Assembly: GCA_963920705.1 (NCBI GenBank)
Contig: OY987239.1
Coordinates: 12,139,004 to 12,203,003, forward strand
Length of the DNA stretch: 64,000 nucleotides
Direction: 5' to 3'
From: Odiellus spinosus
Taxonomy: Eukaryota > Arthropoda > Arachnida > Opiliones > Phalangiidae
In this document: one piece after another, positions 2,285 through 60,333 of the stretch
Layout of the letters: every line of letters starts with the position of its first letter
Position numbering within the stretch: the first letter of the stretch is position 1
Position numbers and translations under genes: made by a program
Notes under the pieces: generated by a model
Databases searched by the model: none
Seen by the model: the letters and a program-made list of their open reading frames with translations, nothing else
What the model was told of the DNA's origin: nothing

Positions 2285-2576
2285 CAAGGAGGATCAGACA
2301 AGGAGAGGAAAAGTGGGGCTGCGTTGAGTTAGAGAGGGAAGAGCCAACCTCCCACTCGGGTGGAAAGGGGGGATAGGAAATTCTCGATGTAAACTGTTGT
2401 CACGTGGTCACTAGCGTCGTGGACTACTACGAAGCTGATAAAGGATCCGTTTTACCCACGTGACAAAAATTTACCACGAAACGTCTCTACCCCCGTTCTC
2501 CCAGAGTGGGAGTTTAGGCCGACGCAGTAGGAACCGCGCCGTCCCCACTTTTCCTCTCCTTGTCTGATCCTTCTTG
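2285..2576. mobile_element. M3 element copy 1
   Basis: A 292-bp element with terminal inverted repeats (CAAGGAGGATCAGA... and its inverse ending CCTTCTTG). It is flanked on both sides by the 7-bp duplication GCCTAGT. There is no coding capacity. It lies about 160 bp upstream of the start codon of the minus-strand coiled-coil gene. Confidence 0.88.
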
Positions 2577-3365
2577 GCCTAGTTCTGGTTCAGGTAAAAA
2601 TCATGATTTGTGGAAACTAATAGACGAAATCTGGAATTTTCAAAAGAATTATTCGATTTGATTGCCAAGGTCTTAGGCATTAAACGCTGACCTAGTGACC
2701 CATTCTTTTAATGTTGAGACAAGACATTACAAGCGCTCTTCAAGGCTTGAAATAATATGATTGGCCAGAATTTATATCTACTTTAATAGATACTTTGTTT
2801 GAAAATCCTCGAATACGTTTTTTAGCTCTAAGTTTCCAATTAAGGGAAACGGAAGAACTAAAAATTTCGAGATAAACTTAAAAATGAGGTGTACATTTTT
2901 TTGAGGAAGTGGTTAGCCCCTCGGAAATAAACGTACTTAAAGATAACAGCGTAAAAAATACTTACCAAATTTTGTAGATATCTTTAGTGAACTTGAAATA
3001 TTATCTATCCAAGAATGTAGAGACGAATCAGGAAATCACATGACGATTTAAACCGAGTGAAATATTATCAATACTTTCCAGAACGAAATTTGCTAAAATT
3101 GCAGCCTTCCTAAGTTCCTAACACCAAACTGACTGGGCTAGAAACTAGAATGACCTTCTTTTCCCCCAAAACGAGGGGTTTATGCCCAGACCCCCTCCCA
3201 ACTATAGAGAGGAAACCATCCCTTGGACTGGAGAGAAAAGTTAACTGGGGGTCTAGGTTAGTAGGGTTTCAACATGTGACCTTGAATAAAAATCGCAACT
3301 AGTAGAGCGGTGAGAGAAAGTTATAATCTTAGACCAATTATTTCCTTAGATGAAGATTCTCAATG
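2577..3365. other. Non-coding spacer with an M6 fragment
   Basis: No gene is seen. Around 2716-2790 lies a half of the M6 palindrome (AAGCGCT...AATAATATGATTGGCC), which recurs at 8.4, 20.3 and 51.3 kb. The rest is AT-rich and unexplained. Confidence 0.5.
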
Positions 3366-3545
3366 CTATTATTGGTATAGTCCCAATTGATCGACTTTTA
3401 AGTGATCGAAACCAGTTTTTTTTTGGATTAAATGATCGAAATATTTAGGTTAGGTTAGGTTAGTTTTTTAACTCAATCGATCATATGAAATTCGACCATT
3501 TCGACCCAAATCGCTATTATTTGCTAAAACACGAGTTAGAATCAA
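3366..3545. repeat. Degenerate fold-back relic with TTAGG telomere-type repeats
   Basis: Scattered GATCGA motifs (CCAATTGATCGAC, AAGTGATCGAAACC, ATCGATCATATG) surround a run of TTAGG repeats at about 3445-3463. The same combination occurs in a clearer form at 27.8-28.3 kb, so this looks like an older relative of that fold-back. Confidence 0.5.
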
Positions 3546-3654
3546 CTATTGGGGCTTTATAAACATTGCAATGACGTATGTAGTCGTGGATTTTTAATCT
3601 AAATAAGAATTAAACGATTTTTAGACGGATTTTGAGTATTTAAAAATTATTTTA

Positions 3655-3880
3655 AGATTTTTCAAACTGTTTGAATGATTTTTCAAACTGTTTCAAAGAT
3701 TTTTCAAACTGTTTCAAAGATTTTTCAAACTGTTTCAAAGATTTTCAAAGATTTTCAAACTGTTTCAAAGATTTTCAAAGATTTTCAAACTGTTTGAATG
3801 ATTTTCAAACTATTTCAAAGATTTTTCAAACAGTTTCAAAGGTTTTAAAACCATTTGAAAGATTATCAAACGGCTTTTAA
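3655..3880. repeat. 21-bp minisatellite
   Basis: About ten units of TTTTCAAACTGTTTCAAAGA with some length variants. The open plus frame here (repeats of FSNCFKDFQ) is a by-product of the repeat. Confidence 0.85.
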
Positions 3881-4849
3881 GATTATTAAACATTTTTAAA
3901 ATAAATTTATAATCCTCGTTTATAATTTGCAAAACGAATTTCAGATTTACAAAAGAATTTTCAGAGCTATGAAAACTTCCCTAATTTGTCTATGCTTCTA
4001 AAGTTTGTCAAGAAAAAAAAAATAATAAAAAAAAAAAAAAAGGTTTGTTGGGATGGCAATAATTTGAAAGGAAAGGGAGGGGCTCCATTGTGGAAACAAA
4101 ATTTAGGAATCCAAGTGCCTGACAAGCTTTTTCCTTTATTATAATTTTTTGGCACGAAAACCCTACTCTACGTGTACCAGTAACCTTTGTTCGAGTTTCA
4201 ACTAAATTTTACAAGTCCTCAAAGATTCCAAGCCTGATGGCTCTATTTCCTAAAAAATATACCACCCCCCATAGAGTCTTTCAAATGTCCTGCTGGTCAA
4301 AGTAACGCTAGACTAAGAAGAAGGACTTAGAAAGAGTCTCTAAGCCTTTGCTTCCAATGATCTTAAGTGTGAGATTCATAACATTAATAAATAGCAGGTG
4401 CGGGAGCAGGTGTTTTTGCTTTCTCACGGAATCTGATTAACCAGTTAAAGGTAGCTTCCAAAAAGATTAACTATGGCTTTGGTAAGATTAGGGTTAGGTT
4501 AGTTTAACTCGATCAGTTTCCCTTTATATCAGTGGGCAATCTATGGTTCCCCGTTTTTCTCTACTCCTAATTGCATTTTTTCCCCCCAATATATTATCTT
4601 GTAAGAAAGCAGTAGGCATCTCCTCCAAGATATTATAAAAGGCTTCTTAGAATTCACGAAGGACGAAACCAAAATAGTCACACGTGTAAGGGATGGTCAA
4701 ATGCAGGGTATCATTATTGGGGTAGGAGATAGGGTTTTTAAAGTAATGGGCTGTGACGTAAAACCGTAAGGGGACCCTTACTGATATTATTAAGATACTT
4801 GGCGTTGTTTAGTGTGATGGACTTATGGTTGTAAATTATGCTCTAATAA
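3881..4849. other. Spacer without recognisable gene
   Basis: AT-rich sequence with an A-tract at 4010-4040, a short TTAGG-like run near 4487 and, around 4735-4830, a copy of the dispersed M8 repeat (about GACCTTTACTGATATTATTA...GGCGTTGTTTA). No supported coding region. Confidence 0.5.
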
Positions 4850-5160
4850 GCGGCGATACTAAATTTCACTTCAAAAAATATTTAACAGTTTTCTCGTAAA
4901 GACGATTTGAAATTAGAAATTATACTTTTTTATGCACTGTCTGCCGTTAGACGAGGAATATGAATACACGCCACGTTTTGTTATTCTTCAATTAATGCGG
5001 ATACTAAATATCACTACAAAATATTCAACAGTTTTCTCGTAAAGACGATTACAAATTATAAACTAACAGTTAAACTTTTTTATGAACTGTTTGCCGATAG
5101 AGGAAGCTTATGAATACACACCAGGTTTGATTATTCATCAAGAAACAACTGATGATACTG
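4850..5160 (+). repeat. Direct duplication of about 147 bp upstream of the coiled-coil gene
   Basis: Two adjacent diverged units begin GCGGCGATACTAAATTTCAC and GCGGATACTAAATATCAC. Each keeps a short frame, MHCLPLDEEYEYTP in the first and MNCLPIEEAYEYTP in the second. Both frames are short and end in stops. They could be a degraded exon or chance. Confidence 0.6.
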
Positions 5161-5198
5161 ATTAAGATCCCCAGAGCCCCTGAGTTTGATAAATACCC

Positions 5199-5206
5199 TA
5201 TAAAAT
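5199..5206 (+). promoter_or_regulatory. Candidate TATA box
   Basis: TATAAAAT lies in a plausible position to start a 5' leader holding the small upstream frame at 5297 and the main start at 5407. Position and sequence are the only support. Confidence 0.35.
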
Positions 5207-5386: not shown

Positions 5387-5406
5387 AACTTCAGTGATTC
5401 AAAATC

Positions 5407-7819
5407 ATGAACCAAGGTTATGTAATGAATTTATCAACTGAAAAAGAATTATCAGATAATCTCCGTTTTGAAGATAACTTGATAGCACAATCACAGCAAA
5501 TAGGTCTTCAATATGTTGAAGACAATGAAGATTCGGAGTTATTAAACAACTCAAATAACGCAACCTACTTAACTGAATTAAACAAATTAAAAATGGAAAT
5601 AGCCGAGTTGGAAAACGAAACTCAGAATCATGTTTTACTTCAAGAACAAATTAGCCAATGGATTCAGGAAACTCAAAATAAATCAGCCCATGTTACAAAC
5701 CGGATAAAATCAACAATAGAAGTTTTAACCAACAAGATAATGGCAATTGACACGATTCTAATCGAAAAAGAAACTCATTTAAAGGTAAGTTTAAATTTAA
5801 TTTAAAAAGCTGTTACTTTAAATTGAAATTAAGTCATATTTTTGAGGTTGATCGTTAAAAAACGATTCGAAATATATATACATACAGAAGCCGATGAAAC
5901 CCTCCTTTGAAGTCTATTACTCCCTGGTCTTGTCTACCCCTCTCTGTATGGGTTATTCTCAAAAGGCGCGATTCGTACGCCTCCTAACGGTAGATGTTTT
6001 CGGAGCGGGAGCTCGTCGAGCGAATATCTCTAGCAGTCTTGGAGTTCGTCCAAAAAACGTCGTCGTTTGTGGAGAGAGAGAATTTCCAATTTTCCGTAGA
6101 CAGGGGGGTATGAAGTAGGACCCCTTCTAACTCGTAAAATTGGGAATTTTACCCATACAGAGAGGAGCGCTATATGGAACATTGGAGTAGTAGACTTCAA
6201 AGGAGGGTTTCATCGGCTTCTGATACATATCAAATAGAAACAAAATTACAGGGACTGTAAGATTACATATTTTATAATCGCCAGTTTTCGAAAAAAATTA
6301 ACTACGTCACGTGATTTCGATATTGTAATTCTGGCACCAGGAGTTATAAGCTCGCTTTCGCGCGGTTGTTTTCGTAAAAGTACTTGCAAGCAGAAAGTTG
6401 TACTAATTATCGTTAATTAAGTTGCAATAATGGCGATTATAAAAAATATATTTTTACTGTCGTGGTAATTTTTTTTTCTAGGATATATGGAGTATCCAAA
6501 AGTCTATTTTACTATAAACAGAAGTAGATGAAACCCTCCTTCGAAGTCCATATAGCACTCCTCTCTGTATGGGTGAAATTCACAATTTTATGAGATCGGA
6601 GGGGTCCTACTTCATACCCCCCCTGTCTACGCAAAATTGGAAATTCTCTCTCTCCACAAACGACGACGTTTTGGTAGGATTATAGTTTATCTAACTAACC
6701 CAACAAACACTTTTTTCTGACTAATTAGACCATGGGGAGTTCAAAAAAAATAGTTAAAAAAATATTGGCCCGCCGCAAATATTTTTAATTTTTTTTTGAA
6801 AATTTGAAATTCCCATGCTAAAATCCCATAGAATGCGCCATAGGTTAGGTTAGGTTAGGTTAGGTTAGGTTGGGTTAGAATCTATGGGATTTAACACGCA
6901 AACTTCAAATTTTGCGTGCTAAATCCCATAGATTCTAACCCAACCTAACCTTACCTAACCTTACCTAACCTAACCTAAAATAACCTAACCCAACCTATGG
7001 CGCATTCTATGGGATTTTAGCATGGGAATTTCATATTTTAAAAAAAAATTAAAAATATTTGCGGCGGGCCAATATTTTTTTAACTATTTTTTTTGAACTC
7101 CCCATGGTCTAATTAGTCAGAAAAAGGTGTTTGTTGGGTTAGTTAGATAAACTATAATCCTACCGACGTTTTTTTGACGAACTCCGAGGCTGCTAGAGAT
7201 ATTCGGTGGACGAACTCCCCCTCCGAAAATATCTACCGTTAGGAGGCGTACGAATCGCGCCTTTTTGAAACTAACCCATACAGAGAGGGGTAGACAAGAC
7301 CCAGGGAGTCATAGACTTCGAAGGAGGGTTTCCAAGGCTTCTGCTATAAATAATTAACATAAAATTAACATTTATTTTCTTATGAACAAGAACTCTGAAA
7401 AATACTGGTCAAGTTTGAAACGTCGAAAAGACAAAGAATACGCAGATTTTAACAAACGTTCCAAAGAAAATATCAAAAAAAGAGAGGCGGAGATTACGAT
7501 TTTGAAGACAAGTTTGTCTAACACCATTCGACAAAAGCTAGAAGCGGAAAAGGAAATAAACAATTTACAGGAAATTGAAGCTAATTCAGAAACGACATTC
7601 CTTAGAAGCGAACAAATGAGAATAGGATATCAAAGAAGTCATTTGGATTCGCAAGGTGCCTTTATTAAAATTCAAATGGATGCCACAACCCTAGAGCGAC
7701 AAGAAAAGCAACAAGAGATACAGGACTTAAAAATGCAATTGCGAAATATGCCACGGTATCAAGAACTTCAATATGGTTGGTATCCCTTTAAAGGGAGGAT
7801 GCAACCTAACAACAAGTGA
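5407..7819 (+). CDS. Two-exon coiled-coil protein, divergent partner of the left-edge gene
   Basis: Predicted exons are 5407-5784 (126 codons, donor AAG/GTAAGT) and 7391-7819 (142 codons plus stop, acceptor after TTTCTTATGAACAAG), joined in phase 0 to give 268 residues. The first ~50 residues are polar (MNQGYVMNLSTEKELS...). Most of the rest is a Lys/Glu-rich coiled coil, with LRSEQMRIGYQRSHLDSQ matching a block of the divergent minus-strand gene. The single intron holds two M1 copies, one of them split by a fold-back. The last eight residues, GRMQPNNK, and the TGA come from the end of an M4 element inserted at 7792, so the original C-terminus has been replaced. No signal peptide or enzymatic motif is seen. 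Function unknown. The exon structure is inferred from splice signals, not transcripts. Confidence 0.68.
5885..6222. mobile_element. M1 element copy 1 (intron of coiled-coil gene)
   Basis: About 338 bp with termini CAGAAGCCGATGAAACCC and the inverse, flanked by the 7-bp duplication ATACATA. No coding capacity. Confidence 0.93.
6300..6410 (+). repeat. M9 dispersed repeat
   Basis: The block CACGTGATTTCGAT...GGCACCAG...CTCGCTTTCGCGCGGTT...AAAAGTACTTG recurs inverted at 9731-9840 and in part at 16067-16110. Its full ends are not defined. Confidence 0.55.
6519..7343. mobile_element. M1 element copy 2, split by a fold-back insertion
   Basis: M1 termini are present at both ends with the 7-bp duplication CTATAAA. 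The element is interrupted at its central GACGTTTT by FB1 (6673-7164). Without FB1 and its duplication it returns to normal M1 length. Confidence 0.9.
6673..7164. mobile_element. FB1: 492-bp near-perfect palindrome carrying TTAGG repeats
   Basis: It begins GGTAGGATTATAGTTTATC and ends with the inverse. The two ~240-bp arms are symmetrical about 6918 with a loop of only a few bases. Each arm holds several TTAGG-type telomere repeats (about 6843-6878 and the mirror). The flanking 8-bp duplication is GACGTTTT. It has no coding capacity. Confidence 0.92.
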
Positions 7820-10145: not shown

Positions 10146-10483
10146 CAGAAGCCGATGAAACCCTCCTTTGAAGTCTATTACTCCCGGGTCTTGTCTACCC
10201 CTCTCTGTATGGGTTAGTTTCAAAAGGCGCGATTCGTACGCCTCCTAACGGTAGATATTTTCGGAGCGGGAGTTCGTCCACCGAATATCTCTAGCAGCCT
10301 CGGAGTTCGTCCAAAAAACGTCGTCGTTTGTGAAGAGAGAGAATTTCCAATTTTCCCTAGACAGGGGGGTATGAAGTAGGACCCCTCCGATCTCGTAAAA
10401 TTGGGAATTTTACCCATACAGAGAGGAACGCTATATCGAACATTGGAGTAGTAGACTTCAAAGGAGGGTATCATCGGCTTCTG
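10146..10483. mobile_element. M1 element copy 4
   Basis: Complete M1 flanked by the 7-bp duplication CTAGCAT. It lies ~240 bp upstream of the first visible GPCR exon and may be in an upstream intron or the promoter. Confidence 0.93.
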
Positions 10484-11858: not shown

Positions 11859-14800
11859 CTTTTGCAATAATTATATTTTTAATAAAAGAAATCCCGCTGA
11901 GAAACAATTTTGACTTGTAATTATTAGGCAATTACGGAAAAGATGTTAATTAATTTTCGTGTCAAAATCAGTCTTATTAAAGCCTACGTATACTATTATT
12001 ATTTTACAGCCTAATTCCCTATCATTTAAATAGGTATAATCCAAAATATAAAACTTAACATCAAAAAAGGCTTAGCAGGATTCATGGAGATCAGGTAGAT
12101 TTCTTGGCATTGAAGGGTCATCGACCAATAATCAAAGGTCCTTTGTTAAGACAAGATCTCAATAAGACTTCCAATAGCATTAAATTGACCTCTGACCCTT
12201 CAATGAGAAGAAATCAGCTAATCTCCATGAATCCAGCTAAGCCTATTTTGTTGTTTTTAAATTTAATTCTAATTTAATATTTGTTTTGTGGTGGATTATG
12301 CCTATATAAACGATAAGCAATCAAACAATTAATTAAAACTAATAGTTTATTAATTAACTACCTCTCTGAAAGTTAAACAATGCAATTTTTTTCTTTGCCT
12401 TTAAAGATGAAGAAACTCAAACATGGAGACATTTTACTGCAGCGCATTTTCTTAATAGAAATAATAAAGGGACTGCATCACCAAAAAATAATTTTTATAG
12501 TAAGTATGTAACAATATAATTGTTTTTTAACGATCAACCCGAAAATATGACTTAATTTTAATTTGGAGTTCATTAAAACACACTGACAGCCTAACTTTCT
12601 TCATTGCAATTTCTTGCTCTCTATATCTATAGATGTGTCATATTAATAATCTTTGTTCTACTTATTGTGGAACGTGTCTGTAGGCGCACCAAAAAGAAGA
12701 AAAAGGAATAATCCGGTTTTGGTGAATCTATGCGTGGCTGACCTCTTAGTTCTACTAGTTTGTTGCCCAATGGCGGCCTACACTAGCGCCACTAAAGTAT
12801 GGGTTCTAGGCAAAGGAATGTGCAAAGCCTTAGCGTATTTTCAAGGTATAAATATATCCAAAAGCCGATGAAACCCTCCTTTGAAGTCTACTACTCCAAT
12901 GTTCGATATAGCGCTCCTCTCTGTATGGGTAAAATTCCCGATTTTACGAGATCAGAGGGGTCCTACTTCATCCCCCCTGTCTACGGAAAATTGGAAATTC
13001 TCTCTCTCAACAAACGACGACGTTTTTTGGACGAACTCCTAGGCTGCTAGAGATATTCGCTCGACGAACTCCCGCTCCGAAAATATCTACCGTTAGGAGG
13101 CGTACGAATCGCGCCTTTTGAGAATAACCCATACAGAGAGGGGTAGACAAGACCCGGGAGTAATAGACTTCAAAGGAGGGTTTCATCGGCTTCTGATAAA
13201 AGTATACACGTGTTCATTTCCCAACAGGTGTAGCAGTTACATCGGGTACTTTATCACTAACAGCCTTAAGCCTAGATCGGTACCTCTTCACGAGACATCC
13301 GGGAGTTTTTGAGAAAGTTAGACGTCGACGGCTCTCAGCCGGAATGGTTATTGGAGTGTGGACATTGTCTGCCTTACTATCTGCCCCAGTTATACTCGTT
13401 AGAACAACGCAAGTAAGAATAGAATACAAAAATACTATTACACTAATTTCACTAAAGTAATATGATTGGTTAAGTCGAATTTCTATAACATATAATTTAA
13501 AATTCCCCTGCACAGGGGGCCTTCCAGACGCTTCTTGGCATCATTAATAAACAACAGCCTATCAAAATGTACGTTTATTTCATTGCAGGACTTAAGACTT
13601 GGCCCATTTACTTTTGATTTTTGCGTGGAACTATGGCAACATCAAATGGCAAGAAGGGCATTCACGTTAGTCACGTTAACTATCGTGTACGCCTTGCCAT
13701 GTGCCGTCCTTATTGCTTGTCACGCGTCGGTCAGTTGGACTCTAAGACTAGCTACTGGCGCTGCCACACTTGCCACCAAAGACAAGAGCAAAATAACAGC
13801 GCATAAGACTGGTACGTTGGTACAGTATACAAATCTATCCCTCCTCTACTGAATGTGTATATTTATTTTTCGTGGACATCATTGGACCACAAGTTTGTCG
13901 TGGAATCAGTGGTGAAGATAAAACTATAAGTGTCCAGGGTATTTTCTTATTGGACAATTATCAAGTTTTCTTAGGTTCAAAGTTATCGGACGTTTACGTG
14001 TCATTTGGACACACTTATGTAGTATTTGCATATGAATTATTCATTTATAGCCAAGGCTTAACGGAATTTTAAATAAATTCCTAGAAATTTTGCATATTTC
14101 TCTCAAACCAATTAGTTAATTATGTTTTTAAAGCTAACCTTCATTATTTTTGACATAAACATGAATGTTCAATTGTCAAAAGCAAGAAGGATCAGATAAG
14201 GAGAGGAAAAGTGGGAACGGCGCGGCTCCTACTGCGTCGGCCTAAACTCCCGCTCTGGGAGAACGGGGGACAGACGGGGGTAGAGATGCTTCGTGGTAAA
14301 TTGTTGTCACGGGGGTAAAACGAATCATTTATGAGACGCGCTAGCTAGCGACCACGTGACAACAGTTTACCTCAAGAATTTCCTATCCCCCCTTTCCACC
14401 CGAGTGGGAGGTTGGCTCTTCTCTCTCTAACTCAACGCAGCCCCACTTTTCCTCTCCTTATCTGATCCTTCTTGTCAAAAGCAATCCCTAATACCTCAAT
14501 GAAAAACAAATTGATGTCCAACCCTTAATTAAAAGGGTATTTTTGGTCTGATATTGATGGACCAAAATTTAGAATATGCCTACCACTTCATTCATCAAAC
14601 ACACTTTTAGAATCGAAAATGAAATCAATTAAAGATATACTTACAGGTTTGAAGCTCTTGTAGTAATCCAATTTGCACTTAAACGCGATAAAAAAACACG
14701 GCACTACACGCGAACTTTCACTTAACGCGTTCGGGAACCATTATTTGGTACTTTGTGAGGTAATTAAGTGTCAGGTGGTTTCCCTCGACCCTCTCTTATC

Positions 14801-16713
14801 AGGACCGCCAAATATACTTGATCCAGACGTAGGTTGGCCTCTCGCAGCTCCAGTGGCCAAACGTGACCCTTCAGAGACGATCTAGATGACCTCTGTCACT
14901 TAGCACTTCAAAATGGAAAATTTCATGAACATTAAGTTTTCCAGATAATTATTTTTGAAATTATTGTAAATGTTCTAAGCCTAAACCATACTTGGCCCAA
15001 ATTCAATTATATTATTATCTTCCGGAGAGTGTGTTGGAATTTAGGCGGGCCACGTTTCGATCAATTGGTCAAAACCCTTGTAGATCAATTGAGAAAACAA
15101 ACCCCCTTGTGAATCATTTAAAAGCCATTCACTTGGATAATAATTTATTTTTCCCAGGTTCAAGTTACGCGGAAGAAAAACTTTTAAGTAGAAATCGTAT
15201 TCGTCAACGAGCTTTCCGAGTGAAAGACAGGTGCGAGCACTCGTCCGGTTGTTTCTCGTCAGAAAACTCTCACTCCCAAGTATATCCGAACAGCAGTTAC
15301 TGTTCGTCCGGTTCCAACTCGGCCAGGGGTACTCTAACAAATTATAGCGGCGTGGACTCTCCTTCAGCCCCACCCAACAGTCAAGCCGAAACCGCATGCG
15401 GAAGTAGAGCCCACCACAAACGACACGTACACCACGCGAACAGACATTATAGAACCAGAACTGGTGTCGTGGTCAACATGTCATCCGAGGCAGGCGACAC
15501 AGTCTTCTCGGACGGTTCTTGTTGTAGACATAGTTCAACTGGAACTGACGCGACTAGTAATCTTCAGGTAACTTTTTTTCTAAGACCTCCTAGACCTAAA
15601 CACAACTTTATAACCTCATAAAATCGTAAGGCGATGGTCGAGAAATCAATTAACCATTAATTAATTAACGTTCTTAATTAGGGTAACTCCGGTGGCGACT
15701 GGGGATCAAATTCGGGCGGCACTGGATACAAGAACCGTAACTCCTACAAAAACAAGAGAACTATACAAAGAAGTCAACGAGCGAGAAGACACTTGGCCAA
15801 TGTTCTAATGGGGATGACGCTCTGTTTCGTCGCTTGTTGGTTACCTTATAACGCGGCGTCATTTTACGTCGACTTATATCCTAGTCCTTCTTTGGCATCG
15901 ACCCTACCATTCGTACTACTTCTTGGACACGCTCATTCAGCGGTCAATCCATTCGTTTATTGGCTACTCAACGAAAGCGCGAGAAGGAGGCAAACATCAG
16001 CCGCTCCCGAAGAAGTTCTACGATCAAGGTATTGTTATAATTGAACTTGCAAAGCCTACACAAGTGATAAAGTCGCTTTCGCGCGGTGTTTTTCGTAGAA
16101 GTACTTGATTTAAATCAAGTCAAATAGCTTTCGTTAACTATGTGACCAGAAGCCGATGAAACCCTCCTTTGAAGTCTATTACTCCCGGGTCTTGTCTACC
16201 CCTCTCTGTATGGGTTATTCTCAAAAGGCGCGATTCGTACGCCTCCTAACGGTAGATATTTTCGGAGCGGGAGTTCGTCCACCGAATATATCTAGCAGCC
16301 TCGGAGTTCGTCAAAATAACGTCGTCGTTTGTGGAGAGAGAGAATTTCCAATTTTCCGTAGACAGGGGGGTATGAAGTAGGACCCCTCCGATCTCGGAAA
16401 ATTGTGAATTTTACCCATACAGAGAGGAGCGCTATATCGAACATTGGAGTAGTAGACTTCAAAGGAGGGTTTCATCGGCTTCTGATGTGACTAACCAATC
16501 ATATCTATTTTACATGCCAGGTCTTCACTGTTAAGAATGCACACGCCAGTATACAAACTACAAGCGGCTTTGGACGCGTTAACTCGCAAAACTGAGCAGT
16601 CATCCCATCAAATGTCCGTCTGCGATTCGCCATCTACGACAGAAAACGCTTTGGGTGTTTTCCACCCAAGATTTACACCGAACAGACCTTTGCCACCGAA
16701 CATAAGACTTTAA
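10728..16713 (+). CDS. Class A (rhodopsin-like) G-protein-coupled receptor, seven exons
   Basis: Exons are 10728 (or 10751)-11082, 12684-12845, 13228-13412, 13589-13811, 15158-15567, 15682-16028 and 16521-16713. All phases agree and give 624 residues if translation starts at 10728. An AG at 10749-10750 means 10751 could be an internal acceptor with the true start upstream. Hallmarks in order: N-terminal N-glycosylation sites (NSS, NYT); TM1 GVAGNGVLL; TM2 NLCVADLLVLL; ECL1 KVWVLG; the TM3 Cys in GKGMCKALAYFQG; SLDRYLFTRHP (DRY box); TM4 Trp and Pro; the ECL2 Cys in FDFCVELW; TM5 YALPC; TM6 CFVACWLPYN; TM7 HAHSAVNPFVYWLLN (NPxxY). ICL3 is over 170 residues, Ser/Gly-rich, with its own exon. The pattern suits a peptide or orphan receptor at the plasma membrane. 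I cannot name the ligand. Introns hold M1, M3 and M4 insertions. Confidence 0.9.
11094..11432. mobile_element. M1 element copy 5 (GPCR intron 1)
   Basis: Complete termini (CAGAAGTATATGAAACCC left). It begins 11 bp after the exon donor. The flanks GTCTCAC and CTAGTAA do not match, so the duplication is lost or the ends have recombined. Confidence 0.88.
11433..12012. other. GPCR intron 1 interior
   Basis: AT-rich intron sequence with a G-run near 11700 and a ~32-nt A-tract at about 11826-11857. Nothing else recognised. Confidence 0.5.
12013..12335. mobile_element. Degenerate M4-related element (GPCR intron 1)
   Basis: It keeps the M4 layout: CATTTAAATAGG, AGGCTTAGCAGGATTCATGG and the mirrored CCATGAATCCAGCTAAGCC, and a terminal TATAAACGATAAG. 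The outer AGGGAGG termini have decayed. Confidence 0.65.
12859..13195. mobile_element. M1 element copy 6 (GPCR intron 2)
   Basis: Complete M1 whose left end has mutated to CAAAAGCC. It lies 13 bp after the exon 2 donor. The 7-bp flanks no longer match clearly. Confidence 0.88.
13812..14182. other. GPCR intron 4, first part
   Basis: A 66-codon open frame at 13872-14072 lacks any recognisable motif and lies within the intron. No feature assigned. Confidence 0.4.
14183..14474. mobile_element. M3 element copy 2 (GPCR intron 4)
   Basis: Termini CAAGAAGGATCAGATAAGG and the inverse. Flanked by the 7-bp duplication TCAAAAG. Confidence 0.9.
14475..15157. other. GPCR intron 4, second part
   Basis: Nothing firm is seen. 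A more GC-rich stretch at 14690-14890 is open in one frame (70 codons) but has no recognised motif or splice context. TTTAGGCGGGCCACGTTT near 15041 recurs inverted near 9.2 and 58.3 kb as a short dispersed repeat. Confidence 0.4.
16147..16484. mobile_element. M1 element copy 7 (GPCR last intron)
   Basis: Complete M1 with the perfect 7-bp duplication ATGTGAC. It ends 36 bp before the final-exon acceptor. An M9 fragment (16067-16110) lies just upstream. Confidence 0.93.
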
Positions 16714-16827: not shown

Positions 16828-17068
16828 CATGGGCCATGAAACGATAAATCCAGGACATGACTCTATCGTCTACTAAAAGAAACAGGGTACGTCATCACCG
16901 TACCGTGATGACGCGATTTTTTGGGGTCAAGTTTGTACAGTCAAAGCTATGTCGTTTTGGGAGGAAAGTGACGTCATATGACGTCACACGCTGTACGAAG
17001 GCTGTCTGTTTGGCCGACCCTCAAACAGGAAAGAGTCACGTCCTGAATTTATCGTTTTTTGGCCCACG
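16828..17068. mobile_element. M15 element just after the GPCR
   Basis: A 241-bp element with ~37-bp imperfect inverted termini (CATGGGCCATGAAACGATAA and the inverse ending GGCCCACG), flanked by the exact 7-bp duplication CATAAAC. Its 76-codon open frame is incidental. Confidence 0.85.
16968..16987. promoter_or_regulatory. Perfect 20-bp palindrome with two CRE-type sites
   Basis: GTGACGTCATATGACGTCAC is its own reverse complement and holds two TGACGTCA motifs, the consensus site of CREB/ATF bZIP factors. It lies inside M15. Regulatory use is only inferred. Confidence 0.5.
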
Positions 17069-17360: not shown

Positions 17361-17776
17361 CAGAGGTATATAATAACCCCCTTCGGGGGGAAGTATGAAA
17401 GCCCCTATACTACCAATGCTAAAAATCACGAACAACGAGAGCCCGCTGCTGACAATCTAGGCCACTAGCTCGCGCTGGACTTCTCAGTGTCGCTACTCTA
17501 GTAAATGGTCTTTGTATAAACAAGACGGCTCGATTTGCGTTTAGAACTTCCTGTCTCGGGAGTCAAGCTGTCTGTTAAAATGGAGTCGAAGGTTGACTTC
17601 GGCTCGCGAGTTCCGGAAGCGCGTACGGAAAATTTAGTCAGGTTCAAAATGGTGGAACTATTTTTTGGGAGTAAAGCGGTGTGTCGATCCGCCGCGATTT
17701 ACGCCGGGTACTCGTTGTTCGTCGATTTTGCCTACCTTTCATACTTCCCCCCGAAAGGGCTTATTATATACCTCTG
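17361..17776. mobile_element. M2 element copy 1
   Basis: Termini CAGAGGTATATAATAACCCC and the inverse, with a subterminal hairpin (CCCCTTCGGGGGG). Flanked by the 7-bp duplication GTCTTAG. About 416 bp, non-coding. Confidence 0.93.
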
Positions 17777-17920: not shown

Positions 17921-18259
17921 CAGAAGTAGATGAAACCCTCCTTTGAAGTCTACTACTCTAATTTTCGATATAGCGCTCCTCTCTGTATGGGTAAAATTCC
18001 CAATTTTACGAGATCGGAGGGGTCCTACTTCATACCCCCCCTGTCTACGCAAAATTGGAAATTCTCTCTCTCCACAAACGACGACGTTATTTTGACGAAC
18101 TCCGAGGCTGCTAGAGATATTCGCTGTACGAACTCCCGCTCCGAAAATATCTACCGTTAGGAGGCGTACGAATCGCGCTTTTTGAAACTAACCCATACAG
18201 AGAGGGGTAGACGAGACCCGGGAGTAATAGACTTCAATGGAGGGTTTTATCGGCTTCTG
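17921..18259. mobile_element. M1 element copy 8
   Basis: Complete M1 (left end CAGAAGTAGATGAAACCC) with the 7-bp duplication GTACGTT. Confidence 0.93.
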
Positions 18260-19563: not shown

Positions 19564-20114
19564 CTTGAAGTAGAAAAGTTGTATTCTGGAGTGGAATTGT
19601 GGGGTTCCATCAGGAGCTTCCTAAAATTCCCATCGTGCTTTTCTTGCTCAGACGTCACGAAGTGGAGCCATCTCTTGGTTTTAAAAGTAGTTTAAATTCT
19701 CCTCACGGGGGGGGGGAGAGAATTATTAGAATTATTGCGTCGTCTGAACTTGAGGTCTGAAGCTCAATCAAGGCTCAATGAAATAGAAAAGTAATGGCAC
19801 GATGGCTCTTGCCATAATATTATTTAGTTTAATTTTTATAGGGATTTCAATTAGTATTAATCATGATCATACCTATAGTAGGCTTTCAAAGAGAACTTGT
19901 AAAGGTAATTTAAAGGTTAGTGACGTCAAAACACGTGATCAACAGGCGAGAGAGAGAAAAAACTTCTTAAGTCTAAAACCAGGTGGCAGTTTGAGCTTGC
20001 GTCTGACCAAATCCATAGGCATCTCGGGTAATTCTAGCTTCCATAGACGGGAAAGGCCCCCCATGTTAAAGCTATAGGGTTTTCCACTCCAGAATACAAC
20101 TTTTCTACTTCAAG
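19564..20114. mobile_element. M7 element
   Basis: About 551 bp with ~33-bp inverted termini (CTTGAAGTAGAAAAGTTGTA and the inverse), flanked by the 7-bp duplication ATTCTCC. A 91-codon frame at 19802 has no recognised motif. At 19470 a short CAGAAGCCGATAAAAC resembles an M1 terminus. Confidence 0.85.
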
Positions 20115-23526: not shown

Positions 23527-23851
23527 CAGAAGCCGATGAAACCCTCCTTTGAAGTCTACTACTCCAATGTTCGATATAGCGCTCCTCTCTGTATGGGTAA
23601 AATTCACAATTTTCCGAGATCGGAGAGGTCCTACTTCATACCCCCCTGTCTACGGAAAATTGGAAATTCTCTCTCTCCACAAACGACGACGTTTTTTTGA
23701 CGAACTCTGAGGCTGCTTGACGAACTCCCGCTCCGAAAATATCTACCGTTAGGAGGCGTACGGATCGCGCCTTTTGAGAATAACCCATACAGAGAGGGGT
23801 AGACAAGACCAGGGAGTAATAGACTTCAAAGGAGGGTTTCATCGGCTTCTG
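23527..23851. mobile_element. M1 element copy 10 (just after IR A stop)
   Basis: M1 with a small internal deletion relative to other copies and the 7-bp duplication ATGACAC. It begins 18 bp after the stop, so it probably lies in the 3' UTR. Confidence 0.93.
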
Positions 23852-41859: not shown

Positions 41860-42197
41860 CAGAAGCCGATGAAACCCTCCTTTGAAGTCTATTACTCCCG
41901 GGTCTTGTCTACCCCTCTCTGTATGGGTTAGTTTCAAAAAGCGAGATTCGTACGCCTCCTAACGGTAGATATTTTCGGAGCGGGAGTTCGTCCACCGAAT
42001 ATCTCTAGCAGCCTCGGAGTTCGTCAAAAAAACGTCGTCGTTTGTGGAGAGAGAGAATTTCCAATTTTCCGTAGACAGGGGGATATGAAGTAGGACCCCT
42101 CCGATATGGTAAAATTGTGAATTTTACCCATACAGAGAGGAGCGCTATATGGAACATTAGAGTAGTAGACTTCAAAGGAGGGTTTCATCGGCTTCTG
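41860..42197. mobile_element. M1 element copy 12
   Basis: Complete M1 with the 7-bp duplication GTGTTAT. Confidence 0.93.
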
Positions 42198-44991: not shown

Positions 44992-47900
44992 ATGAAATTC
45001 GCGTATCTGAGAGGACAAAAAATTCAGACTGGAGTCATAGAGGTAATTAATAGATTAAAATAATCAACTACTACTAAATTCTGATGTTATATTATCCTTT
45101 TGATTAAAACATAGACTTCATTCGAGTTAATTTATTCCAAGATAAAGTAAAACAACCTAATCCATATCCGTTTTTATTATCCAACAAAAATTGCAACTTG
45201 TCTTAGAATATTATCCGATGCGTTATACGTTCGGATAAAAAACATTCAAAATTTATTTTCCGTGAAAAATAACGAATAAAAAGATGATTTAAAATCTTAG
45301 TTTCGTCGTTTTATCAGAAGCCGATGAAACCCATCTTTGAAGTCTACTACTCTAATGTTACATGTAGCGCTCCTCTCTGTATGGGTAAAATTCCCAATTT
45401 TAGGAGATCGGAGGGGTCCTACTTCATCCCCCCCTGTCTACGGAAAATTGGAAATTCTCTCTCTCCACAAACGACGACGTTTTTTTGACGAACTCCGAGG
45501 CTGCTAGAGATATTCGCTGGACGAACTCCCGCTCCGAAAACATCTACCGTTAGGAGGCGTACGAATCGCGCTTTTTGAAACTAACCTATACAGAGAGGGG
45601 TAGACAAGACCCGGGAGTAATAGACTTCAAAGGAGGGTTTCATCGGCTTCTGGTTTTATTTATATCCTTCGAATTAAAAGTTAATTTGAAATATTTAATT
45701 TGCAGGAAACTTTAGAGATAGATGCGCTACGAAATCTCTATCGATATATGCAAGACATATTTGTATCATACATCAACGTAAGGTAAAAATAAAAACTTGT
45801 ATTTTGAGGAATGACTGTAGAATTGTCATTAATTTATTTTTTCTTAGTTTTGAGTATATTTTCATGTCTAAATATGATATTAACGAAGAATCTGTAATAT
45901 TAAATGCCGAACTACCAAAGGTGAGTGTGAAATCACGATCCCCTTAATTATCGAGGTTAAATTATTTTATCTGGTTACGAAGTAATTTCCCTATATTTAG
46001 TCATATCAGAAGTAGATGAAACCCTCCTTTGAAGTCTACTACTCCAATGTTCGATATAGCGCTCCTCTCTATATGGTAAAATTCCCAATTTTACGAGTTA
46101 GAAGGGGTCCTACTTCATCCCCCCTGTCTACGGAAAATTGGAAATTCTCTCTCTCCACAAACGACGACGTTTTTTTTTTGACGAACTCCGAGGCTGCTAG
46201 AGATATTCGGTGGACGAACTCCCGCTCCGAAAATATCTACCGTTAGGAGACGTACGAATCGCGCCTTTTGAGAATAACCCATACAGAGAGGGGTAGACAA
46301 GACCACGGAGTAATAGACTTCAAAGGAGGGTTTCATCGGCTTCTGGTCAGAGTAAACAAACTAAAACGAACTAAACTTTGAAATATGGTGGCGAATTGTG
46401 AATTAGGAGCTTCCGGGTTGCCACAGTTTTTTCAGATTCAAATTCCCTGACCGTTTCAGCCAAAACTACCCAATTTTTAACCTTTTGTTTTTTATGTTAT
46501 TTTGAAATTGCGTTCGTCAAACTGCATGCGTATCTTTGTTCTAATCTATACAACTGACACGCCGTCAGCTGAGAATCTTTTCCGCGGATAATGATTGGAA
46601 TTTCCTGGCTTCTTGAAAGATCTTTAAATTCCCTGTCTTTTTTTTGGTTCATTTTCAAATTCCCCGACTGTTTTCCCTGACTTGTGGCAACCCTGAGCTT
46701 GATCGTAATTACATAAATTGTTCAATTGGCGCTCATTAATCCGGTTTCTGATAAAATCTTTCAGGGGATGAATTTGCTTTTTTTGCCTTTCGATTTTTCT
46801 CTGATCGCTGCGTTGAATAATTTCAATATCACGAAGCTCTCTAACACTTTCGTGCCTAGCTGGACGTTCTTGTTATCTCCAGCACCCGAGCCAAGCACCA
46901 CCGCCAACTTAACGTTTATAGCCGTCGAGCCAACAGTAAGTTAACAGCGAATTAGGCCTAAAGAAATACGCGCTAATAGAATTATTTCTCCAGGTATTAG
47001 GGTTATTTATATTCTTCTTGGTCTTGGTGTCCGGTCTTATGTCGTTAGCCATTTTGGACAATAAGAAATCAAAAACAAAACAGTCTACGATGAGTAGATA
47101 TTGGCAAGCCATAAAAACGTTCTTCGTGACATTCAAAGATCACTTGTGGCAAAATATTAACCTACTGTTTTTCGAAGGTAAGTATATTTAAGGGATGGAT
47201 AAATTCGTAAGAGGCTGATATATCTTTAATATGGCTATAGACTATTACGTGCCCGCGTCTATTCCGTGGAGATTGGCTTTCATGGGTTGGTTATTGGGTA
47301 TCACGATTATCAGTTTCGAGATCTCCAGTTATTTGAAATCGGAATTCTCGGAGACCAAATACGACAAAGTGGAAACCATTGACGATTTAATGACACACGC
47401 GGGCAAAATCAAAATCGGAGTCATGGAAGGTGGAGTCGAAGACATGCTTATCAAAAATAAGGTGCGCCTTATGTTTTATCTTAAATATTTTCTTAAAATT
47501 GATCCACAGGCACACCAATACGTTTAGGGGCAATAAGGATTTGCTCTCTACCAGAAGCCGATGAAACCCTCCTTTGAAGTCTACTACTCTAATGTTCGAT
47601 ATAGCGCTCCTCTCTGTATGGGTTAAATTCACAATTTTACGAGTTATGGGGGTCCTACTTCATACCCCCTGTCTACGGAAAATTGGAAATTCTCTCTCTC
47701 CACAAACGACGACGTTTTTTGGACGAACTCTAAGGTTGCTAGAGATATTCAATCGACGAACTCCCGCACCGAAAATATCTACCGTTAGGAGGCGTACGAA
47801 TCGCGCTTTTTGAAACTAACCCATACAGAGAGGGGTAGACAAGACCCGGGAGTAATAGACTTCAAAGGAGGGTTTAATCGGCTTCTGTCTCTACTTATAA

Positions 47901-51170: not shown

Positions 51171-51870
51171 AGAATTTTTAGACACGATTTTAGTGTATAA
51201 ATTAATTTCTAAAATTAAAATTTTAATTTTAGTAAATATAAAATCCGACCAATCATATTATTTCAACCTTAAACAGCGCTTGTAATGTATTAATAATAAC
51301 AGAATGGGCTGGTATTTGATGCCTAAGACCAGAGGTATATAATAACCCCCTTCGGGGGGGGGGGAAGTATGAAAGGTAGGCAAAATCGACGAACAACGAG
51401 TGCCCGGCGTAAATCGCGGCGGATCGACACGCCGCTTTACTCCCAAAAAATAGTTACACCATTTTGAACCTGACTAAATTTACCCTACGCGCGCTTCCGG
51501 AACTCGCGAGCTGAAGTCAACCTTCGACTCCGTTTTAACGGACAGCCTGACTCCCGAGACAGGAAGTTCTAAACGCAAATCGAGCCGTCTTGTTTATACA
51601 AAGACCATTTACTAGAGTAGCGACATTGAGAAGTCCAGCGGGATCTAGTGGCCTAGATAGTCAGCAGAGGGCTCTCGTTGTTCGTGATTTTTAGCATTGG
51701 TAGTATAGGGGGCTTTCATACTTCCCCCCGAAGGGGGTTATTATATACCTCTGCTAAGACTTTGGTCATCAAATATTATGACGTTATAAGCAATATTAAA
51801 GGCTGAAGCAATATGATTGGCTGGATTTTACATTCACTTTTTGTTTTAAAAAAATTTACCAAAATAATTA
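51171..51870. mobile_element. M6 palindromic element copy split by M2
   Basis: The left arm (ATTTTTAGACACG...CCGACCAATCATATTATTTC) and right arm (AAAGGCTGAAGCAATATGAT...TTTACCAAAA) flank an inserted M2. Ends are approximate. Confidence 0.7.
51330..51753. mobile_element. M2 element copy 3 (nested in M6)
   Basis: Complete M2 with the exact 7-bp duplication CTAAGAC. Confidence 0.93.
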
Positions 51871-55055: not shown

Positions 55056-55372
55056 CAAGAATCCATTCAGGTTCCATAAGAATATGGAAGCGTAGCTGTA
55101 GCCTCTGGTACCATCCTCCCAAACTTTGTAACAAAAGTTCGTCCGCAATTTTCGCGACATTTGTACGCTTAGATCTTTTTTCGGTCGGCTCCATTATTAT
55201 TACCCAAAATATTACGTCAAGGTCGTTAGTGGCGCGGGTTAATAATATAATGTCAGGAGCGATTTACTTGAAAAATCGATTCGAAGCGGACGAACTTTCG
55301 CTACAAAGTTTGGGAGGATGGTTATTGAATCGCGGCCCTCCCATATTCTTATGGAACCTGAATGGATTCTTG
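55056..55372. mobile_element. M11 element copy 1
   Basis: Inverted ends CAAGAATCCATTCAGGTTCC and mirror, flanked by the exact 7-bp duplication GTGTATT. The 117-codon frame across it is incidental. Confidence 0.88.
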
Positions 55373-55488: not shown

Positions 55489-55805
55489 CAAGAATCCATT
55501 CAGGTTCCATAAGAATATGGGAGGGCCGCGATTCAATAACCATCCTCCCAAACTTTGTAGCGAAAGTTCGTCCGCTTCCAATCGATTTTTCAAGTAAATC
55601 GCTCCTGAAATCTATTATTAACCCGCCCCACTAACGACCTTGACATAATATTTTGGGTAATAAAAATGGAGCCGACCGAAAAAAGATCTAAGCGTACAAA
55701 TGTGGCGAAAATTAGCAGACGAACTTTTGTTACAAAGTTTGGGAGGATGGTACCAGAGGCTAAAGCTATGCTGCCATATTCTTATGGAACCTGAATGGAT
55801 TCTTG
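55489..55805. mobile_element. M11 element copy 2 (opposite orientation)
   Basis: Same ends as the previous copy and the interior inverted relative to it, so the two could pair as a large hairpin. Flanks CGTTAAC and GTTAAAA match only with a one-base shift. Confidence 0.85.
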
Positions 55806-55965: not shown

Positions 55966-56992
55966 AGCCTCGTTCATACATAGACCTAAATGAGCTTCGA
56001 TTTCTATAACTGGTTATCAAACCAACGTGAGAAATCAGTTCGTGTTGGTTCGGGCAGCAATTTGGTCAAGTCGCTTTGAAAATAACGAGGCGGGGAGACA
56101 AATTTGCTGATAAATCTTAAAATAACGCGATTAAAATTATATTTTCTGTCAAAATCGAGTTACAAACACTATTTACTAATTAGTTTGAGATAATTATTTA
56201 AAAATTTAAAATTCTGGGCATTTTTTAAAACGACGCTAAGCCTTGGCTCAGGTTAAACCGAACCGTCTTGTCAGTGTCTGAACCAGGGAAGCCTCGTTCA
56301 CACTTGAAGGCAAAATCGGTTCCAAAACCAGTTCGAAGCGTTTTCCGTTTTCCCTGGTTCACACGCTGACAAGACGGTTCGCGGCCGTTCGCCCCGGTTC
56401 GACCTAAGCCAAGGCTTAGCGTCATTTTAAAAAAATGCCCAGAATTTAAAAATTTTAAATAGTTATCTCAAACTAATTAGTAAATCGTGTTTGTAACTCG
56501 TTGGTTAATAATTTTTGACATAAACTTTAATTTTAATCGCGTTATTTTAAGATTTATCAGCGAATTTGTCTCCCCGCCTCGTTATTTTCTTGGCGGATTG
56601 AACCGAAGCGACTTGGCCAAGCTGCTTCCCGAACCAACACGAACTGATTTCTCACGTTGGTTATAGAAATCGAAGCGCATTTAGGTCTATGTATGAACAA
56701 GGAGGATCAGAGAAGGAGAGGAAATGTGGGGCTGCGTTGAGTTAGAGAGAGAAGAGCCAACCTCCCACTCGGGTGGAAAGGGGGGATAGGAAATTCTCGA
56801 GGTAAACTGTTGTCACGTGGTCGCTAGCTAGCGCGTCTCATAAAGGATTCGTTTTACCCACGCGACAACATTTTACCACGAAACGTCTCTACCCCCGTTC
56901 TCCCAGAGTGGGAGTTTAGGCCGACGCAGTAGGAACCGCGCCGTCCCCACATTTCCTCTCCTTCTCTGATCCTCCTTGGTATGAACGAGGCT
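55966..56992. mobile_element. M12: ~740-bp palindrome with a nested M3
   Basis: The outer AGCCTCGTTCATACATAGAC mirrors TCTATGTATGAA...CGAGGCT. Inner arms meet at GACGCTAAGCCTTGGCTCAG and its mirror near 56.3 kb. The minus-strand frame at 56225-56425 lies in the centre and has no recognised motif. Confidence 0.82.
56698..56978. mobile_element. M3 element copy 5 (nested in M12)
   Basis: Complete M3 (CAAGGAGGATCAGAGAAGG ends) with the exact 7-bp duplication GTATGAA. Confidence 0.92.
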
Positions 56993-57548: not shown

Positions 57549-57869
57549 CAGAAGCCGATGAAACCCTCCTTTGAAGTCTACTACTCCAATGTTCGATATA
57601 GCACTCCTCTCTGTATGGGTAAAATTCACAATTTTACGAGTTAGAAGGGGTCCTACTTCATCCCCCCTGTCTACGGAAAATTGGAAATTCTCTCTCTCCA
57701 CAAACGACGACGTTTTTTTGACGAACTCCGAGGCTGCTAGAGATATTCGCTCGAAAACATCTACCGTTAGGAGGCGTACGAATCGCGCCTTTTGAGAATA
57801 ACCCATACAGAGAGGGGTAGACAAGACCCGGGAGTAATAGACTTCAAAGGAGGGTTTCATCGGCTTCTG
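57549..57869. mobile_element. M1 element copy 16
   Basis: M1 with a small internal deletion and the exact 7-bp duplication GCGATAT. Confidence 0.93.
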
Positions 57870-58658: not shown

Positions 58659-58690
<32 letters not shown>

Positions 58691-59000
58691 GGTAAATTCG
58701 AAGTCTTATGCAGCAACGCGCGCGGGCTTTCGCTCGCTTTTTGCTGGGCCCCAAAATTGAGCTTCGAATGTGGCAGACAGAGAACCGTATTGGGTGAGAA
58801 ATGAATTTATTTTATAGCACGATTCCTATTTCGTAATCGTGGTTTAAACCCCTTTTTTTTTAACAACCACCAAATTCTTACAAGATCACTAGATTTAACC
58901 AACTAACATTCCTAATGTAACACCAAGAAAGCATTGATTTTATTTAGTATACAGAGTAGGATTTTTAATATATTATTTTAAATTGAGAAATATCTAACAT
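57971..59000. other. Spacer
   Basis: No supported gene. AAGCGTGGCCCGCCTAAATT at about 58335 is a dispersed short repeat (also 9.2 and inverted at 15.0 kb). A T-tract lies at 58671-58690. Confidence 0.4.
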
Positions 59001-59002
59001 AG

Positions 59003-59190
59003 CCGCGTTCACATTAGGCCTGTTTCTCTGGAGTCGATTTCTAGATAGGTTTCAACAACCGATAGATGTAGCTTCAATAAATCGATTTATAAAGATATAC
59101 AAAGCCTTGAATAGGAACTAGTCTTTTCTCGAAACTGCTTCGGGAACCAGTTTCGAAGCTACGATAAATCGATTCATATCGATTTGATTT
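59003..59190. repeat. Second single relative of the 140-bp repeat
   Basis: AGCCGCGTTCACATTAGGCC at the left, and GAAACTGCTTCGGGAACCAG (inverse of the repeat core) further right. Confidence 0.55.
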
Positions 59191-59218
59191 TGTTAACTGT
59201 TAGTATAGGTCTATTTAA

Positions 59219-59654
59219 AGGGAGGATGCAACCTAACAACAAGTGATTTTTTTATCGATTCCTTATTGTTTAAATAGGCCTAATCCACTATTTAAAAAAT
59301 TTACAAACAAATATTAAACTAGAAATAAATTTAAAACTTACCCCGAAAATAGGCTTAGTGGGATTCATGGAGATCCTGATTTCCTCGCGTGTCAGGTCTA
59401 GCGACCAATCGCGCGCGACTGTAAGTCTCGCGGAGATCTCGCGTGAACGACGGGCCTTCGCTCATTGGTCGCTAGACCTGACACGGACGCGATTCAGGAT
59501 CTCCACGAATCCCGCTAAGCCTATTTTCAGGGTAAGTTTTAAATTTATTTCTAGTTTAATATTTGTATTGTAAACTTTTTATCGATGGATTAGGCCTATT
59601 TAAACGATAAGGAATCGCTAAAAAAATCACTTGTAATTAGGTTGCATTCTCCCT
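59219..59654. mobile_element. M4 element copy 4
   Basis: Full M4 from AGGGAGGATGCAACCTAAC to CTCCCT between TTAA duplications. Confidence 0.92.
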
Positions 59655-59996
59655 TTAACACCCAAAATGATTTTTTTTTTATTATTTTGGCACCCTGTTG
59701 GTTTCAAGAAACAATCGAATTGTTTATTCGATGGTCTATGTATTATTTAATTTTACGCACCATTTATCACGGATGGTCTGGTACCAGAGACCACGCGTCT
59801 ATTTACCGCCGGTACTGATGTATTTGATTAGTAACAGATGTTTTTATTTTTAGGGGAACGTAATAGACCCCCCCCCCAACCCCCCATATAATTTCGAAAA
59901 TACCTAATAAATCATTAGAAAATGCATCAGATAAAAATAAAGGTGTTGCATTGTAATACCTCGAATTGTCAACAAACACACACATATGGATACTAA
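59655..59996. other. Spacer
   Basis: C-run near 59868 and a short CA run near 59976. No gene. Confidence 0.4.
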
Positions 59997-60333
59997 CAGA
60001 AGCCGATGAAACCCTCCTTTGAAGTCTATTACTCCCTGGTCTTGTCTACCCCTCTGTGTATGGGTTAGTTTCAAAAAGCGCGATTCGTACGCCTCCTAAC
60101 GGTAGATATTATCATAGCGGGAGTTCGTTGAGCGAATATCTCTAGCAGCCTCGGAGTTCGTCCAAAAACGTCGTCGTTTGTGGAGAGAGAGAATTTCCAA
60201 TTTTCCGTAGACAGGGGGGTATGAAGTAGGACCCCTCCGATCTCGGAAAATTGGAAATTTTACCCATACAGAGAGGCGCGCTATATCGAACATTAGAGTA
60301 GTAGACTTCAAAGGAGGGTTTCATCGGCTTCTG
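59997..60333. mobile_element. M1 element copy 17
   Basis: Complete M1 with the exact 7-bp duplication ATACTAA. Confidence 0.93.

Follow-up and report, generated by a model that had tools for sequence, protein, structure and literature searches.

Six miniature transposon families with 7-bp target-site duplications as probable P-superfamily derivatives in the harvestman Odiellus spinosus

The stretch of Odiellus spinosus DNA analysed here, 64,000 nucleotides long and hereafter called the window (C17:12139004-12203003 in a genome of 443,074,358 bases and 286 contigs), carries many copies of six short element families, M1, M2, M3, M7, M11 and M15, which have terminal inverted repeats (TIRs) and are flanked by target-site duplications (TSDs) of 7 bp. 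All six are very probably miniature inverted-repeat transposable elements (MITEs) of the P superfamily, that is, non-autonomous derivatives mobilised in trans by P transposases, with a transposase that would be split in the largest P clade read here. M3 and M7 are deletion derivatives of long P-type elements, and for M1, M2, M11 and M15 we infer a P origin. An earlier note on the same stretch had suggested that one undescribed transposase lineage may lie behind all of these families and a 2.8-kb insert. The shared stagger was borne out, a shared site preference was found, and M3 and M7 trace to P-type elements, but these do not amount to one transposase, given cores with identities down to 24% and different partners for M3 and M7. 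The TSD finding adds more members to a known superfamily, while the antisense gene arrangement in a P clade is new.

Seven-base duplications and a common target site

Two scans of the window looked for inverted-repeat elements with flanking duplications. Scan A paired 16-nt TIRs with up to three mismatches and demanded exact flanking repeats of a given length k. At k=7 it returned 31 pairs, 23 of them elements of the named families and eight of them low-complexity, tandem-array or internal-repeat pairs. Non-palindromic pairs numbered 8 at k=6, 3 at k=8 and 5 at k=9, and among these we judged a single one, 6673-7164 with 8 bp, to be a genuine element. Palindromic rows, 81 of them at k=6 and another 12 at k=8, were dropped as interiors of inverted repeats, a step that in both scans would lose any genuine palindromic 6- or 8-bp TSD. 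Scan B, with 1512 TIR pairs and non-palindromic flanks, gave 20 pairs at k=7 (one of which, 56212-56444, may be an internal-repeat artefact), 2 at k=5, 1 at k=8, 3 at k=9 and none at k=4, 6 or 10. A control with one flank displaced averaged 0.445 pairs at k=7, and 8.9, 3.2 and 0.97 at k=4, 5 and 6, respectively.

In total, 24 TIR copies in the window have exact 7-bp TSDs and none has one of 6 or 8 bp (13 copies of M1, 3 of M2, 5 of M3 and one each of M7, M11 and M15), which upholds the earlier count of more than 20 against a chance expectation below one. With the genomic loci described below added to the window, 55 family pairings could be tabulated. An exact repeat of at least 4 bp was present in 32, and all 32 were 7 bp long, among them 18 of 30 pairings for M1, 4 of 9 for M2, 1 of 3 for M11 and 2 of 2 for M15. 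The remaining 23 are degraded copies or false pairings between neighbouring ends, and the 8-bp duplication typical of hAT elements occurred in 0 of the 55 pairings across the six families. The 7-bp pattern is real and specific to that length.

Empty sites confirmed where two copies of M1 and one of M2 begin and end. The M1 copy at 28804..29141 (TSD TTTAAAC) has a paralogous empty site at 21385-21584, and the one at 45315..45652 (GTTTTAT), which lies within a repeat, has empty sites in L003 (two places), in L002 and at 33603-33727 of the window. For the M2 copy at 21709..22125 (ATACAAT), the paralogous empty site is 29675-29806, where the target bases have diverged to TTAAAAT.

The target sites of the families also resemble one another. 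We scored each site from 0 to 4 for RT at the left and AY at the right of the TSD, without pooling strands. The mean was 2.94 for M1 (n=18), 2.80 for the other families (n=15, including the long M7 copy L056) and 3.00 for transposase-bearing P elements (n=8), compared with a background mean of 1.64 (z of 6.0, 4.8 and 4.2, respectively). M2, M11 and M15 have too few sites to be judged singly and were scored together with M3 and M7. Profiles that combine both strands, and are so symmetric by construction, have T three bases before the TSD and A three bases after it, most clearly in M1. These observations support a single stagger and a single site preference common to the six TIR families.

P transposases of the genome and their links to the families

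The GTP-binding domain of P transposases, PF21788, has 144 matches in the genome (150 of 164 candidates were scored). Seventeen P loci were read at 9.9 kb (L039-L055) and 30 short ones with about 1.5 kb on each side (L009-L038), five of which (L015, L019, L029, L035 and L036) coincide with five wide loci. TIRs with a TSD were found in nine of the 17 wide loci. Eight of these TSDs are 7 bp long (L039, ACTACAC; L040, ATAAAGG; L041, ATAGAGC; L043, ATATTAT; L045, GTAGAAT; L051, TTTGAAG; L052, GTTAAAC; L054, CTAGACC) and one is 8 bp long (L055, CGCCAACC), so the P elements with readable ends mostly make 7-bp TSDs, and the fixed stagger supposed earlier is not absolute. No convincing ends were seen in L042, L044, L046, L047, L049, L050 or L053 at the same width. 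The perfect TIR arms of the P elements span about 17-40 bp. L040 and L041 belong to one family, with cores 99% identical, and L039 is inserted in an M1 copy, the uninterrupted M1 relatives of which represent its empty site.

In a tree of 26 P cores, several of them partial, 18 form a clade with support 97/98, and all seven clade members with a known TSD have 7 bp; L051, also with 7 bp, is placed weakly outside it. Identity between cores with 7-bp TSDs falls as low as 24%. Four elements were compared with the Drosophila P transposase, and L055 scored highest (106.5 bits, E 1.2e-29; 8 bp), followed by L051 (78.4; 7 bp), L045 (49.5; 7 bp) and L048 (34; no TSD).

Two of the MITE families have long P-type relatives. 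The P element L048 bears M3 termini: its two ends match the M3 copy at 36533..36824 over bases 7-131 (85%) and 154-292 (82%). Between them lie a separate, upstream THAP open reading frame (ORF; PF05485, 1.6e-10) and an ORF of 786 aa containing the N-terminal part of the RNase H domain (PF21787, 2.9e-24) and the GTP-binding domain (PF21788, 1.6e-14), which the solved P transposase, PDB 6p5a, matches at 9.8e-8. L048 has TIRs, a rearranged left end and no matching TSD, and the M3 copies have 7 bp. As for M7, copies with its ends elsewhere in the genome have M7 bases 1-350 and 353-551 about 3 kb apart. One of them, L056, is a 3001-bp element with perfect 33-bp TIRs, the TSD AAGGAAC, a THAP ORF (2.4e-9) and an ORF resembling the C-terminal domain of P transposases. 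The long copies found for M3 and M7 hence carry P or THAP parts, and the two families are deletion derivatives of P-type elements. In this they are much like the Anopheles P MITEs, which keep both P ends around an unrelated centre and have 8-bp TSDs (PMC1562414). Six P domains also have M7-like sequence some 480 bp upstream; its terminus faces the domains, so we rejected it as a linkage and take it for a nested insertion.

No transposase-bearing element with M1, M2, M11 or M15 termini was present in the 17 wide and 30 short P loci. When the terminal 16-mers of all six families were sought near L009-L055 with up to three mismatches, complete M1, M2 and M15 copies appeared beside or around P elements, and no P element near these loci was bounded by such 16-mers; four weak single matches (L009, L020, L025 and L037) were taken as chance. 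The first 100 listed M11, M2 and M1 places, on contig 1, were compared by eye with the P places. An M1 end about 1.9 kb beyond the P domain at C1:510314 had the wrong orientation for an element end, and otherwise nothing lay within a few kb. Exact terminal 16-mers occur genome-wide, forward/reverse, 10068/10144 times for M1, 2071/2055 for M2 and 2023/2015 for M11 (reversed-pattern controls 0/0, 0/1 and 0/0), copy numbers so high that autonomous relatives are hard to find by similarity. Two long M11 variants, L057 (707 bp) and L058 (735 bp), share a unique interior and have no visible transposase. The interior of L058 (225-655) was followed as a route to a transposase-bearing relative, and the 40 places scored of 106 candidates genome-wide were all long non-autonomous copies. 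A 50-base match between L058 and L009 (79%, E 4e-4) was taken as chance. A search with M15 gave 299 candidates, and the 40 that were scored had MITE length, plus one extra fragment.

These searches leave room for another explanation, in which the P-type elements are limited to M3, M7 and their relatives. M1, M2, M11 and M15 would then come from a different superfamily that makes 7-bp TSDs (Dada, or an atypical hAT), and the agreement in length would be coincidental. The missing P element with their termini in the loci read speaks for it, as does the start of M2, CAGAGG, which we take to resemble hAT ends. By eye, the four families also fail the Repbase family rule (first 11 bases, one mismatch allowed; PMC4455052) against the P termini read here. 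However, every exact TSD in them is 7 bp long, and both M1 and the pooled non-M1 families have the RT...AY preference of the transposase-bearing P elements. We therefore consider a separate origin of the four families distinctly unlikely and favour P derivation for all six.

The single undescribed transposase of the earlier note, with a fixed 7-bp stagger and with the 2.8-kb insert among its substrates, would account for the common TSD length and for the CA...TG ends that most families indeed have (M7 begins with CT). It is contradicted by the fact that M3 and M7 have different partners, L048 and L056, and by the strongly diverged P cores with 7-bp TSDs and distinct TIRs. The 2.8-kb insert (29823..32646, no strand assigned) is a further difficulty. 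Its AACAAGT flanks are real, and its paralogue holds a single AACAAGT, but it has no TIR, and its second copy, in L013 from 2489, follows AACAAGTT; AACAAGT precedes it there too. Since it lacks a TIR and the same bases precede both copies, we did not group it with the TIR families, to which it is probably unrelated. The insert could represent a different type of element, one that prefers particular sites; a hairpin (ACCTCCCC...GGGGAGGT) is possible at its right end. Derivation from a P element was rejected for it, as its match to L013 starts at the first base of the insert and lies beyond the transposase of that locus. A 7-bp stagger in the P superfamily has, moreover, already been published (PMC3276498, PMC4168063). 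Taken together, these points make a single transposase for everything extremely improbable, and P transposases of several subfamilies remain our preferred source.

The known 7-bp members, 1360 and Galileo, were left out of the superfamilies listed in the earlier note, and the system is in this respect not an undescribed one. In Drosophila 1360 (Hoppel, ProtoP), the modal TSD is 7 bp in 98.21% of 279 insertion sites, compared with 8 bp for the P element, and the target motif is palindromic, GTTNAAC (PMC3276498), features shared by the families described here. Galileo, also from Drosophila, has mostly 7-bp TSDs, with three copies at 8, the motif GTATTAC/GTANTAC, and THAP and DDE residues within one protein (PMC4168063). 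The outer bases of both motifs are the same as those of the RT...AY sites. Galileo resembles the P elements here in its TSDs and its THAP plus DDE transposase, and differs in its long Foldback-like TIRs, which contrast with the short perfect arms found here. The P elements of Drosophila and Anopheles have 8-bp TSDs, a length that L055 alone has among those read.

In the mechanism that we propose, P transposases encoded elsewhere in the 443-Mb genome would move, or would have moved, the six MITE families in trans. If the known P reaction is a guide, which is GTP-dependent and involves a 17-nt staggered donor cleavage (PMC7776569), the transposase would bind the end repeats, excise the element and join its ends to target strands 7 bp apart near RTNNNAY, and gap repair would then yield the 7-bp duplication. 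The transposase of each P subfamily would presumably act on its own ends and on those of its own MITEs. Different families would then depend on different P subfamilies, and would keep one stagger and one target preference despite having unrelated termini and interiors.

An opposite-strand C-terminal reading frame in the main P clade

Members of the main P clade encode, on one strand, the N-terminal part of the RNase H domain, the GTP-binding domain and a short C-terminal part of RNase H, with THAP upstream where it was looked for. Their C-terminal, THAP9_C-like domain is a separate ORF, downstream of the core and on the opposite strand, whereas in conventional P loci it follows in sense (PF22824, THAP9_C, in L010 and L012). 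Among the 26 rows of the tree, the domain is antisense in all 12 clade rows where it was detected and in sense in all 8 rows outside the clade. A genome search with one C-terminal-like protein gave 52 matches at 42 places; a P core lies within 4 kb of 30 places, with the ORF downstream and antisense in all 30, and the other 12 have no core at that distance. PF22824 itself has 40 matches genome-wide. By coordinates, six lie within 4 kb of a core, each of them in sense, and 34 have none nearby; L009-L012 and L014, which contributed to the conventional profile, make up five of the six.

The antisense ORFs and the conventional C-terminus cross-hit each other in single-profile searches in both directions and share a Y.xGx...GGL pattern, and a profile-profile comparison matched them with a probability of 95.7 (E 1.1e-8) at 16% identity over 135 columns. 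In 11 wide clade loci, sense matches are confined to profile positions 13-82, the RNase H C-part, and no C-terminal part was found in sense among pieces of at least 50 aa. Both the similarity and this gap on the sense strand argue against the alternative that the antisense ORF is an unrelated accessory or captured gene merely resembling THAP9_C. That alternative draws on the low identity and on the Pfam model PF22824, which matched none of four antisense ORFs scanned (E up to 1), nor those of L056 and L039; we consider it unlikely, if less so than the other alternatives weighed above, and hold to a displaced C-terminal domain. An AlphaFold model of the C-terminal-like ORF (mean predicted local distance difference test score, pLDDT, 58.9) is too weak to decide the fold and was not used.

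Between L039 and L054, the nonsynonymous and synonymous divergences (dN and dS) of the antisense ORF are 0.228 and 2.20 over 207 codons, a ratio of about 0.10 that is rough because dS is near saturation. The ratio for the core is similar (dN 0.155, dS 1.52). We see about even chances that these elements form a lineage of P transposons with a two-gene, tail-to-tail transposase, the catalytic chain on one strand and the C-terminal subunit on the other. The C-terminal domain would presumably be made as a second polypeptide from the opposite strand and join the THAP/RNase H/GTP-binding chain. The 1360 element has one sense transposase ORF. Galileo likewise differs from the arrangement here in having THAP and DDE residues within one protein. 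Among the papers listed by searches of open-licence literature aimed at it, which do not extend to Repbase Reports, none describes a second or opposite-strand P gene in its title or abstract.

Several observations weigh against P derivation with a split transposase. Only the 17 wide P loci can show both ends, to which the short ones add little, and one of their nine readable TSDs, that of L055, is 8 bp long. The likeness between M3 and L048 is only 82-85%, with the rearranged left end and the missing TSD of L048; no RNase H or GTP-binding part was found in L056; and M1, M2, M11 and M15 have no transposase-bearing relative among the loci read. The RT...AY score was picked after the MITE TSDs had been viewed, so the eight P sites alone (z 4.2) are an independent test, and two of these come from the single family of L040 and L041. 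Near-identical copies occur among the 30 antisense places, which thus represent fewer than 30 independent cases. The C-terminal ORF was not seen on either strand in the wide clade loci L042, L046 and L047; nor was it seen in many short loci, but their sequence stops about 1.5 kb from the core. Finally, L051 combines a 7-bp TSD with a sense C-terminal domain, so stagger and split are not coupled.

A set of 28 dispersed THAP9_C matches runs from about 67-71 to 175, with 26 of them in open frames of 190 aa (for example C17:12924002-12924316). By coordinates, none has a P core within 4 kb, and they are possibly a separate family with the C-terminal domain alone.

Copies in the window, neighbouring elements and implications

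The copies in the window are given here without strand. Besides the two with empty sites, M1 copies with exact TSDs lie at 5885..6222 (ATACATA), 6519..7343 (CTATAAA), 10146..10483 (CTAGCAT), 16147..16484 (ATGTGAC), 17921..18259 (GTACGTT), 20780..21117 (ATTGTAG), 23527..23851 (ATGACAC), 41860..42197 (GTGTTAT), 47552..47887 (TCTCTAC), 57549..57869 (GCGATAT) and 59997..60333 (ATACTAA). Four others have imperfect TSDs or none, with mismatches at 1 (8786), 2 (46007), 3 (12859) and 5 (11094) of the 7 positions. The remaining M2 copies are at 17361..17776 (GTCTTAG) and 51330..51753 (CTAAGAC). M3 is found at 2285..2576 (GCCTAGT), 14183..14474 (TCAAAAG), 36533..36824 (ATTTGGC) and 39307..39599 (TTTAAAT), with a subfamily copy bearing CAAGGAGG termini at 56698..56978 (GTATGAA), and M7 at 19564..20114 (ATTCTCC). 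An M11 copy at 55056..55372 (GTGTATT) is accompanied by a second one at 55489..55805 without a matching TSD (4 of 7 positions mismatched). M15 lies at 16828..17068; its TSD CATAAAC is exact, but the ends of this copy are imperfect (CATGGGCC/CGTGGGCC), and a cleaner copy lies in L041 at 1406-1659.

The M1 copy at 6519..7343 is interrupted by the 492-bp TIR element at 6673-7164 (GGTAGGATTATA..., 8-bp TSD GACGTTTT), which is of another type than the 7-bp families. Another element with an 8-bp TSD, TAGGGGTGTGCGAGT (TSD ATTATCAC), occupies matching places in one P family (L040 5214-5883 and L041 5248-5918) and is held by the copies L015, L016, L018, L019, L021, L022, L040 and L041; it is an old nested insertion that is now carried along with the P element. 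L050 contains a long inverted repeat with a 131-bp perfect arm (754-3432) close to a deep-branching P core and, inside a tandem repeat, a 730-bp element with CACGGACCGTG ends and the 7-bp TSD GTTCATG (1288-2017). The duplicated region of the window that supplied two of the empty sites includes receptor-like gene paralogues at 22387-23004, 32792-33409 and 47969-48328, presumably of the ionotropic-receptor type. Receptor-like fragments and a TTAGG run are in keeping with an arthropod genome. Long tandem arrays, built of 20- to 170-bp units with 94-98% matches, are located at 24407-25712, 43061-44204, 48678-49934, 53346-54301 and 61259-62896.

The P assignment names a likely mobiliser for very abundant, unclassified MITEs with 7-bp TSDs, and a single genome offers many diverged P transposases with 7- and 8-bp staggers in which the basis of stagger length can be compared. 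Where ends could be read, members of the split-gene lineage duplicate 7 bp, and this lineage would account for MITE families of two thousand to ten thousand copies if it includes M1, M2 and M11. Should the split gene be confirmed, the C-terminal domain of a P transposase can act as a separate polypeptide, which would let an element control its transposition through the ratio of two proteins.

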